Source of the DNA: an uncultured Campylobacterales bacterium
GTDB taxonomy: Bacteria > Campylobacterota > Campylobacteria > Campylobacterales > Arcobacteraceae
Direction: 5' to 3'
NCBI GenBank assembly: GCA_947503785.1
Contig: CANNFB010000017.1
Span: 1-64,000, forward strand
Length of the DNA stretch: 64,000 bases
The notes below the pieces were generated by a model, which searched no databases, was not told the origin of the DNA, and was given only the letters and a program-made list of their open reading frames with translations. The position numbers and the translations under genes are program-made. Positions 947 through 54,976 of the stretch are shown piece after piece; position 1 is the stretch's first letter, and the number at the start of each line of letters is the position of its first letter.

Positions 947-1984
947 TTAGTGAACGATTATATCTTTCTCACCTTTTGGAATAACTTCTCCAATAATAGC
1001 TGCATACCCTAAAGTTAAATCTTCAACTTCTTTAATATATTCTTTTGCATCAGCAGCATCCATAGCAATTAATAAACCACCAGATGTTTGCGCATCACAT
1101 AATAATGTTTTAGCATAATGTGGTAAATCGCCAATATATGAAACTTTATCTTCCATATATTTCATATTTTTTCGTGTACCTCCTGGAATTACTTTATCAT
1201 CTGATAATGCAATTGTTTCAGAAATAATAGGAACTTGTGAACACTTAATTAAAAATGAAGTAAGTTCATTTACTGATTCTAAACTATGTCCTAAAAGTCC
1301 AAAGCCTGTTACATCAGTACAAGAACTTACATCATACTTTTTCATGATTTTTGAAGGAAGATAATTTAAACTGGCCATAATATCAGCACAATGTTTCATT
1401 ACTTTCAGTTCAACTAAATCTCTTTTAATTCCTGTTGTTAAAATTCCCATTCCAAGAGGTTTTGTTAAAACCAAAACATGACCAACTTTTGAAGTATTGT
1501 TTCTTACAATATCATTTGGATGTATAATCCCTGTTACTGAAAGTCCATAATACATTTCAGGTGATTCAATAGTATGACCACCTAATAAAAGTCCACCACA
1601 TTCTTTGATCTTTTCATTTCCACCTTTTAGAATTTCTCCTAAGGCATCAGTTGGTAAATTCTTTTTATCAAAGCCTACTATATTTAAAGCCGTTTTTACA
1701 TCTGCTCCCATGGCAAATATATCTGATAAAGCATTTGCAGCTGCAATTTTTCCGTATATAAATGGATCATCAACAACTGGTGTAATAAAATCTAATGTTT
1801 GTACAATAGCTTGGTCTTCATTAATTTGATAAACACTAGCATCTTCTGCTGTGTCAAATCCTACTAAAATTTTTTCATCACTTGGTGATAAGTTACAAAG
1901 AGTATGTTTCAGATCCTCCGGACCCATCTTTGCGGCTCATCCTGCAGCTTGAACGAATTTAGTTAATTTATATTCGTTATTCAT
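947..1984 (-). CDS. selD: selenide, water dikinase SelD, itself a selenoprotein (in-frame UGA = Sec16)
   Basis: SelD makes selenophosphate from selenide and ATP, the selenium donor for selenocysteine synthesis. A normal ORF call would start at the ATG at 1927 and give 326 residues, losing the active site. Reading upstream through TGA (1937-1939) to the ATG at 1984 restores the N-terminus: M-N-N-E-Y-K-L-T-K-F-V-Q-A-A-G-U-A-A-K-M-G-P-E-D-L. This aligns with the G-C-x-x-K catalytic motif of the family (E. coli Cys17/Lys20), here Sec16 and Lys19. A ribosome site (GAGGATAT) precedes 1984. Total length 345 residues, the usual size. The ATP-binding segments (TDVTGFGLLGH, LLGGHTIESPE, DAQTSGGLL) are intact. 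The gene is divergent from a PhnD-like importer. Confidence 0.95.
1910..1926 (-). promoter_or_regulatory. putative SECIS hairpin for selD Sec16
   Basis: Eleven bases after the UGA the mRNA can fold GGUC/GAUC (extended by two G-U pairs) around a CGGAG loop. Position and size resemble bacterial SECIS elements, which recruit SelB within the coding region. The CCGGAG core is shared with the fdhA element in this window at almost the same distance from the UGA. Confidence 0.55.
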
Positions 1985-21768: not shown

Positions 21769-24600
21769 ATGTCAGCAAATACATATGAATCTTTAAATGC
21801 GAAAGTAGGACGACGGTCATTTATGAAAATGGCTGCAGTTGCAACTGCATTTGGAGTGACATCATCTTTTGCTAGTACTACTGCAACTAGAAAAGCAACA
21901 GCAGAAGAGATTAAAAATCCTTTTCCTGGTTCAAAAACAGTTAAAACTGTATGTACAGCTTGTTCAGTTGGTTGTGGTGTAATAGCAGAAGTTCAAAATG
22001 GAGTTTGGGTAAGACAAGAAGTTGCTCAAGATCATCCAGTATCACTTGGAGGGCACTGTTGTAAAGGTGCTGATATGATTGATATGGTTAGATCAGAAGT
22101 AAGACTTAAACATCCAATGGTTAAGAAAAACGGAGAATGGAAAAGGATTTCTTGGGATGAGGCTTTAGATGGTATTGCTTCAAAACTAGAAGATTTAAGA
22201 CAAAAAGATGGTCCTGATTCAACAATGTTTTTAGGTTCAGCAAAATTCAATAATGAGCAATCTTATTATTACAGAAAATTTGCTGCAATGTTTGGAACAA
22301 ATAATATAGATCACCAAGCTAGAATTTGACATAGCTCAACAGTTGCCGGAGTGGCAAACACATGGGGTTATGGTGCTATGACAAATTCTTTAGGAGATAT
22401 ACAAAATTCTAAAGCGATAATTATTTTTGGAGCAAATCCAGCAGTAAATCATCCAGTAGGGTTCCAACATTTCTTAAAAGCAAAAGAAAGAAACAATGCA
22501 AAAATAATTGTAGTAGATCCTAGATTTACTAAAACTGCAGCAAAAGCGGATTATTTTGCACAAATTAGACCAGGAACTGATATTCCATTTATGTATGGGA
22601 TGTTAAATATAATCTTTGAAAAAGGTTGGCATGACAAGAATTTTATTAAAGATAGAGTTTTTGGTATGGATGAAATCATGGCTGAAGCTAAAAATTGGCC
22701 AATTGATAAAGTTGCGGAAGTTACAGGTGTTGATGCTGATTTAATTGTACAAATTACTAAGCATTACGCAAATAACACGCCAGGAACTTTAATTTGGGCT
22801 ATGGGTTTAACTCAGCATACAAATGGTACATCTAATACAAGAATGGCTCCAATTTTACAATTAGCACTTGGTAATATGGGTGTTGAAGGTGGTGGAACTA
22901 ATATTCTTAGAGGTCATGATAATGTTCAAGGAGCAACTGATTTTGGTTGTTTAGCAGATTCATTACCAGGATATTATGGTTTATCTGAAGGTTCGTGGAA
23001 ATATTTCGCTTCATCATGGGGTGTAGATTTTGACTGGTTACAAGGTAGATTTAAAGATCCATCTTGGATGGGTAAAAAAGGTTTCACATTAGCTAGATGG
23101 TGGGCTGGAGTTTTAGGTGAAAATGAAGGTGAAGATGCAATTCATAATGCAGATACACGTTTAAAAGCTTTATTTGTTATGGGTAATGGTATTACATCAA
23201 CTGCACAAACAAAAAAAGTTAAAGAAGCCTTAGATCATTTAGATCTTGCAGTATTCTGTGACCCATTTGTAAATGAGGGTGCAATTATTACTGATAAGCA
23301 AAATGATGTTTATATTTTACCAGCTGCAACTCAATTTGAAACAGCAGGTTCAGTAACTGCAACTAATAGATCTGCACAATGGAGAGATAAAGTTATCGAA
23401 CCAATGTATGAATCAAAAGCTGATCAAGACATTATGTTTGAATTAGCAAAAAGATTAGGTTTCTATGATGAATTTACAGCTGGAATGAAAGTAAAAGAAG
23501 ATAAAAAAGACTTTAATTGGCCAGAAGATGCAACAGATGAGATAGCTAGAATTATCAAAACTATTGGATTAACAGGTTGGACAGCAAAAAGATTAAAAAT
23601 GCACCAAGAAAATTGGCACATGTTTGATGAAGTAAGTTTAAGAGGTTACGGACCGATGACTGGTGAGTACTATGGTTTACCATGGCCTTGTTGGACAGAA
23701 GGACATTCAGGAAGCCCAGTATTATACAACATTAACAGAAGTGTTAAAGAAGGTGGTATGGGGTTCAGAAACAGATTTGGTATGGAAAGAGATGGTGTTG
23801 ATTTACTTGCTGGAAAAGGCAGTGCACCAAAAGCTTCAAGTAACAAAGATGGATATCCTGAGATTAATAAAGATAATATTGAAGCCGTATTAGGTATTAC
23901 ATTAACAGAAGATGAAAAAGCTAAAATTGGTAAAAACTGGAAAGTTGATAAATCAAATATTATTGCTGAAAAATGTATGGAAGCAGGAATTGCTCCTTAT
24001 GGAAATGCGAAAGCTAGAGCAAAAGTTTGGGGATGGGCAGATGAGATTCCAAAACATAGGGAACCATTACATTCACCAAGAACTGATTTAACAAAAGAAT
24101 ATCCTTCTTTCCCTGATAAAAAGAATCATTGGAGAGTTGATACAAGATATATTTCAGAGCAAACAGCACAAGATTGGGCGAAAGATTTCCCAATTAACCT
24201 TGTAACTGGAAGACTTGTAAATATGAACGGTGCTGGTATGGAAAATAGAGCTAGTAAATATTTAGCTAAATTAACACCAGAAATGTTCTGTGATATCAAT
24301 CCTGATTTAGCAGGAAGATATGGAATTAGAGATGGTTCAATGATGTGGATTCATTCACCTCAAGGAACAAAAATTAAAGTAAAAGCACATTATTCTTATT
24401 CAGTTACACCTGATAGAATATTTATTCCAATTCACTTCGCAGGTGTTATGGAAGGTGAAAGTTTACTTCATAAATATCCAGATGGAACTGCTCCTTATGC
24501 TACAGGTGAAAGTGCAAATACTGTTACTAACTACGGTTATGACATTGTTACACAAATACCTGAGACTAAGGGTGGATTATGTCAGATAGCAAGAGCGTAG
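21769..24600 (+). CDS. fdhA: formate dehydrogenase catalytic subunit with selenocysteine (UGA at codon 187)
   Basis: Read as one gene of 943 residues across TGA 22327-22329. The frame before (HQARI) and after (HSSTVAGVANTWG) joins as the conserved Sec/Cys-HSS active site of formate dehydrogenases. It oxidises formate to CO2 in the periplasm, with a bis-pterin W or Mo cofactor. Visible parts: TAT signal (GRRSFMKMAAVATAFG), 4Fe-4S motif CTACSVGCG...CCKGAD (residues about 64-100), cofactor domains (IIFGANPAVNHPVGF, DPRFTKTAAKADYFAQIRPGTD) and a C-terminal beta-barrel domain. The tungstate importer downstream suggests W. Ribosome site GTAGAGGAG. Confidence 0.97.
22342..22359 (+). promoter_or_regulatory. 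SECIS hairpin for fdhA Sec187
   Basis: Starting 12 bases after the UGA, GTTGCC pairs with GGCAAAC (one bulged A) around loop GGAGT. Size and distance fit bacterial SECIS elements read by SelB. The CCGGAG core recurs in the selD hairpin. Confidence 0.7.
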
Positions 24601-53816: not shown

Positions 53817-54416
53817 ATGAGAAAAGTTTATGAAATAAAAGATGAAAGTTTAATACAAAATATTTTAGAAGATGTTGAATATGGAACTTTGGCAATTTGT
53901 AGTGATAATAAACCTTATTCCCTACCTTTAAATTTTGTATCAATAAATAAAGAGATTTTTTTTCATGGAGCAAAAAAAGGTAAAAAGATAGATATTATAA
54001 AAGACAATAATAATGCTAGTTTCTCTGTAGTTGAATCATACTCTCAACTTCCATCATATTTTAGTACAGATACTGGAAATGCTTCACCCGCAACTCATAT
54101 GTTTAAATCTATAATAATTGATGGAACAATAGAGTTTATGGAAGATTATAAACAAAAAGCTAATGCCCTAGAGTTTCTAATGCAAAAGTATCAAAAAGAG
54201 GGTGGATATAAACCTCTAAATGATGAGATTTATAAAAAGATAATAAATGCAACATTTCTTTATAAACTAGTTCCACAGAAAACTAGTGCAAAATTTCATT
54301 TAGGACAAGATTATAATGAAGAAAGATTTAATCGCGTATGTGAGCACTTAAAACAAAGAGGAACTGCAAAAGACTTGAAAACATTAGTTCTATTAAGTGA
54401 GTATAGAAAAAAATAA
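53817..54416 (+). CDS. pyridoxamine-5'-phosphate-oxidase-fold (flavin-binding split-barrel) protein
   Basis: 199 residues from ATG 53817, one base after the DJ-1 stop (GAGGATAG site); the frame from 53793 overlaps that gene. VEYGTLAICSDNKPYSLPLNFVSINKEIFFHGAKKGKKIDII is the FMN-binding split barrel, related to nitroimidazole-resistance (NimA-like) proteins. With the DJ-1 protein it forms a small MocR-controlled unit. Confidence 0.85.
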   Translation: MRKVYEIKDESLIQNILEDVEYGTLAICSDNKPYSLPLNFVSINKEIFFHGAKKGKKIDIIKDNNNASFSVVESYSQLPSYFSTDTGNASPATHMFKSIIIDGTIEFMEDYKQKANALEFLMQKYQKEGGYKPLNDEIYKKIINATFLYKLVPQKTSAKFHLGQDYNEERFNRVCEHLKQRGTAKDLKTLVLLSEYRKK

Positions 54417-54479
54417 ATATTTGGTATCTAAAAATAAATACTATATAATCATTTATATGTAAATATACAAGGATTTAAA

Positions 54480-54707
54480 ATGAATATAGAAATATACTAT
54501 TGCGGAGAGTGAAACTATTTACCAGAAGCTTCTAGGTTAGAAGATGAACTAAAAGGTAATTTTGAAAATGTAAAGATAAAGTTAAATAAAGGTTCAGGTG
54601 GAATTTTTAAAGTCATTTTAAATGGCTCTATTATCTTCAATAAGTTGGAGATTGAGCAGAGATTTCCAAAATCTAATGAAATTACGACTATAATTAAGTC
54701 TTTATAA
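54480..54707 (+). CDS. SelW/Rdx-family small selenoprotein (in-frame UGA = Sec11)
   Basis: Too short and interrupted for ORF callers: ATG 54480, TGA 54510-54512, stop TAA 54705. Translation reads MNIEIYYCGE-U-NYLPEASRLEDELK, continuing to KVILNGSIIFNKLE and RFPKSNEITTIIKSL, 75 residues. The CxxU redox motif (Cys8, Sec11) right after the first strand and the late NGxxIFxK segment are those of the SelW/SelT/Rdx thioredoxin-like family. Ribosome site AAGGATTTAAA. Likely a cytoplasmic thiol redox protein. It lies 63 bases after the split-barrel gene. Confidence 0.85.
54529..54543 (+). promoter_or_regulatory. putative SECIS hairpin of the SelW-like gene
   Basis: CTTCT pairs with AGAAG around loop AGGTT, 16 bases after the UGA. 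The GGU in the loop matches the SelB-contacting loop of the E. coli fdhF SECIS. The loop differs from the GGAG loops of selD and fdhA in this window. Confidence 0.6.
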
Positions 54708-54751
54708 TTAAAATTTTTATAGAATACGGGAATCATAAACTAAGGTAAGAC

Positions 54752-54976
54752 ATGTCAAGAAAAAATACTTCAAGTGTAGACACAACAGACGGCGATAAAA
54801 TGGCAAGAAGATCTAGGGAACTAAAAAATGCTGTTCCTGTAAGTTTTGACCATAAAGCAGCAGATGGACAAGTAATTAATGCTAGAAAAGGTGTAAATGT
54901 AGATTTAGCAAAAGCAAAAGCTAAAATAAAAGCTAAAATGAAAAAAGCATCACAAAAGAAAAATAAAAAGAAATAA
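54752..54976 (+). CDS. small very basic protein, 74 residues
   Basis: AAGGTAAGAC precedes the ATG. The N-terminal half (MSRKNTSSVDTTDGDKMARR) is polar; the last 25 residues are Lys/Ala repeats (AKAKAKIKAKMKKASQKKNK). It resembles histone-H1-like or ribosome-associated tails and may bind nucleic acid. No family recognised. A terminator follows. Confidence 0.6.
   Translation: MSRKNTSSVDTTDGDKMARRSRELKNAVPVSFDHKAADGQVINARKGVNVDLAKAKAKIKAKMKKASQKKNKKK

Follow-up and report, generated by a model that had tools for sequence, protein, structure and literature searches.

At positions 54480-54707 on the forward strand of the window, the 64-kb stretch of DNA analysed here, lies a frame which opens with an ATG (54480-54482), closes with a TAA (54705-54707) and is interrupted solely by the TGA at codon 11 (Table 1). 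The frame of 75 codons, its ribosome-binding site and the lone TGA had been pointed out in an earlier note made from the sequence; the coordinates and the AAGGA were verified, as was the placing of the TGA at the fourth position of a CxxU motif (C8-G9-E10-U11). With U written for the TGA, the product reads MNIEIYYCGEUNYLPEASRLEDELKGNFENVKIKLNKGSGGIFKVILNGSIIFNKLEIEQRFPKSNEITTIIKSL. Simple gene finders do not report this gene because the internal UGA is read as selenocysteine (Sec), and, as the note had also remarked, the sole listed open reading frame of at least 60 amino acids here is a 73-codon shadow on the opposite strand (54515-54736). Upstream, the DNA is near-identical in two close relatives. 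A possible sigma-70 promoter is a consensus match of a kind no more frequent than expected from shuffled sequence; its -10 stretch is conserved in two relatives (L002 and L003).

Table 1. Features of the selW locus and of the selenocysteine system in the window and on contig C4 of the same genome
Feature	Location	Strand	Remark
selW-like gene (SelT/SelW/SelH, Rdx family)	54480-54707	+	75 codons, UGA counted as Sec
In-frame UGA, Sec codon 11	54510-54512	+	position 4 of CGEU; TGA retained in relatives
Ribosome-binding site AAGGA	54469-54473	+	6 nt upstream of ATG
Possible sigma-70 promoter	54421-54449	+	TTGGTA-17-TATAAT; consensus match alone
SECIS apical hairpin	54529-54543	+	stem CTTCT/AGAAG, loop AGGTT; five pairs, covarying
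selD (selenophosphate synthetase)	947-1984	-	itself a UGA selenoprotein; UGA at about 1939-1937, in AAGUAA
Formate dehydrogenase alpha subunit	21769-24600	+	UGA 22327-22329 (QARIUHSS); downstream hairpin
selB	C4:145984-147795		above cut-off
selA	C4:147819-149141		above cut-off
tRNA-Sec	C4:149203-149299		above cut-off

The read-through product has a strong match to the Pfam Rdx profile (PF10262) over profile positions 1-73 of 74, with an E-value of 2.5e-18 and a score of 66.5 bits (cut-off 22.6), which bears out the SelW/SelT/Rdx pattern that the earlier note had recognised and had proposed to check with this profile. Two NCBIfam models also match at full length, namely TIGR02174 (CXXU_selWTH; 56.8 bits, cut-off 34.2) and NF041051 (SelTWH_Campy). 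The latter gives 87.1 bits with C replacing U, 0.9 bit short of its curated cut-off of 88, a value which none of the 104 genomes of the bacterial family Arcobacteraceae reached in a six-frame search. The motif lies close to the N-terminus, as CxxU or CxxC does in the Rdx family. Among the homologues are solved structures (3dex, 2p0g, 2ojl, 2fa8, 2oka and selenoprotein W, 2npb), and in the alignments listed these carry C-x-x-C, with Cys where the present gene has UGA. The nearest relatives that were found come from Poseidonibacter lekithochrous, at 84% identity, and from metagenome-assembled genomes of Arcobacter sp. Judged by its sequence, 54480-54707 is a genuine, ordinary bacterial selenoprotein W gene of a small redox protein family, and its product of approximately 8.5 kDa would be expected to adopt the thioredoxin-like Rdx fold.

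Conservation of the UGA was surveyed in 397 genomes of the phylum Campylobacterota, with nested counts for order and family. An Rdx gene occurs in 115 of these genomes, in 118 copies, and the in-frame TGA is kept in 115 of the copies at identities down to about 32-40%. The TGA is present in 50 of 51 copies at the level of the order, while in the Arcobacteraceae the gene was found in 16 of 104 genomes, with exactly one TGA in each of its 17 copies. The DNA of the three exceptions in the phylum was read directly, and these proved to be two tandem paralogues with TGC (Cys) and one frameshift at the UGA. No stop-free homologue with a residue other than Cys at the UGA position was found among the 118 copies. 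Stop-free homologues without Cys at this site, which the earlier note had named, for selenium-free relatives, as counting against its reading, were not found; the intact stop-free copies have TGC.

Tandem selW pairs were observed in one genus (L070, L071 and L072, in genomes G492, G428 and G392, respectively). In G492 and G428 UGA in one copy is matched by TGC at the same position of the other, from which the UGA position can be equated with Cys; together with the CxxC of the solved homologues, this is the alignment of UGA with Cys looked for in a bacterial selenoprotein. The Cys copies have lost the hairpin, with 3 and 0 of the 5 pairs left. Such pairs let Sec and Cys forms be compared in nature, together with the gain or loss of the SECIS hairpin. 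In G392 UGA is found in both members of the pair, and in one of them an additional codon follows it. In the frameshifted gene (L064; G352 C1:253075-253275) the reading frame shifts by one base right around the UGA, and this is either a sequencing error or the mark of a fresh pseudogene; the stop-free match of this gene was rejected as a Cys form since the DNA shows this change. A second, divergent SelW copy in a further genome (L074:152-379; G035 C96 near 103766) keeps UGA and hairpin, the first Cys of the motif being gone (FYSKU versus YCxxU).

The hairpin with an AGGTT loop was found as the earlier note described it, with a UGA-to-stem distance of 16 nt. All five stem pairs are present at equal distance in each of the 43 homologues read, and every one of these has G at loop position 2; the hairpin thus lies 3' of the UGA and has the loop G of a SECIS element. 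The third pair occurs as TA, GC, TG, AT and CG, and the fifth as TA, CG, AT and GC. All 37 distinct sequences have the five pairs intact. Synonymous-codon resampling with the codon usage of this genome would leave 6.1 +/- 2.2 of them so (at most 13 in 500 trials), an approximate expectation because one AT-rich usage set was applied to every relative. When the pairing partner was slid by -3 to +2, none of the 37 sequences retained the stem, and 11 did so at +3. The folding energy of 64 nt at the locus is not significant (z = 0.45), a loosely SECIS-like hairpin follows 25% of the window's TGA triplets, and an Rfam search of 54300-54900 yielded no match to a SECIS family. Since loose hairpins are common and the energy unremarkable, the argument for a SECIS element rests on conservation. 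Taken by itself the hairpin is nothing unusual; chance would not account for the protein match, the conserved UGA or the stem's covariation among relatives.

A single stop breaking the frame is also what would be seen in a decaying pseudogene in which the TGA is a plain nonsense mutation. The retention of TGA at the equal codon throughout so diverged a set of copies, and the covariation of the stem, make this highly improbable.

The source genome (2.76 Mb in 54 contigs) contains the complete selABCD set: selD lies within the window, and a single contig carries selA, selB and tRNA-Sec. Searches with the SelB and tRNA-Sec families also match in genomes without the trait, where the matches are probably to translation GTPases other than SelB and to non-Sec tRNAs that have a long variable arm, and for this reason presence was scored from above-cut-off matches and SelA only. 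By this measure selA is present in all 13 good-quality genomes of the family that have selW, and selW occurs in none of the 22 without selA (Fisher p 0.03, with relatedness ignored). Several congeners carry selA and have no selW, and selW is therefore dispensable.

We also considered whether the UGA is read by a suppressor tRNA, by near-cognate read-through or as Trp. This is a shade less probable still, given that the UGA falls at the redox position of CxxC/CxxU, where paralogues have Cys, that it is followed by a conserved SECIS hairpin and that the genome encodes selABCD. That the uninterrupted opposite-strand frame is the real gene and the forward match its shadow can be dismissed, since its product gave no match in a Pfam search, against the E-value of 2.5e-18 on the forward strand.

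We are therefore nearly certain that this is a functional selW, probably a single-gene unit, in which SelB, directed by the hairpin, decodes the UGA as Sec to give a CxxU protein of the Rdx family. The Rdx match, the Cys at the UGA site and the four Sel factors all support the selenoprotein reading of the earlier note. As is established for selenocysteine insertion in bacteria, SelB would bind the hairpin that starts 16 nt past the UGA and bring Sec-tRNA-Sec to codon 11, so that in this strain, too, the UGA would be decoded as Sec. The CxxU motif and the fold family point to thiol/selenol chemistry, and the product is probably a small oxidoreductase, in keeping with the presumed redox role of bacterial SelW.

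The window holds three selenoprotein genes which ordinary gene calling truncates or drops: selW is missed, selD is truncated and the formate dehydrogenase gene is split into 21769-22329 and 22351-24600. The genome gains one correctly read gene in selW. The neighbours of selW, encoding DJ-1/PfpI, PPOX-like and 74-amino acid hypothetical proteins, are shared by the closest relatives only and give no functional clue. The lysine-rich 74-amino acid product (54752-54976, forward strand), which adjoins selW, was negative in a Pfam search; its conservation extends over 50 residues and to two close relatives only. A plasmid search found nothing. The UGA-containing selD and fdhA lie within approximately 53 kb of selW, and in all nine relatives with selW and selA on one contig the two are 29-106 kb apart, though these cases are not independent. 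Perhaps, and we offer this tentatively, selW of the Arcobacteraceae forms part of a loose selenium region on the chromosome and has across the phylum been lost but almost never converted to Cys.

In marine samples, SelW-like proteins rank among the most abundant selenoproteins (PMC9312934). The description of the present gene as hidden holds insofar as ORF callers miss it; the family itself is known in the Campylobacterota and has its own NCBIfam model, and unannotated SelW genes were already described in Epsilonproteobacteria in 2015 (PMC4607533). The present selW adds a member to this described family and is of low novelty. The text of the 2015 report gives the same UGA set (Fdh, SelD and SelW) and the same type of SECIS hairpin, a common one of 5/6 bp with a loop G; its examples there are mainly from Campylobacter and Helicobacter, unlike the present Arcobacteraceae gene. 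For SelW of Campylobacter jejuni (locus CJnc60), a prediction was published in 2005 (PMC1242214), and translation past its UGA was supported by Ribo-seq and mass spectrometry in 2025 (PMC11955535). Like the gene described here, it encodes a short Rdx protein with UGA for Sec that was overlooked in annotation, but it differs in its diverged sequence, its gene context and its genus.
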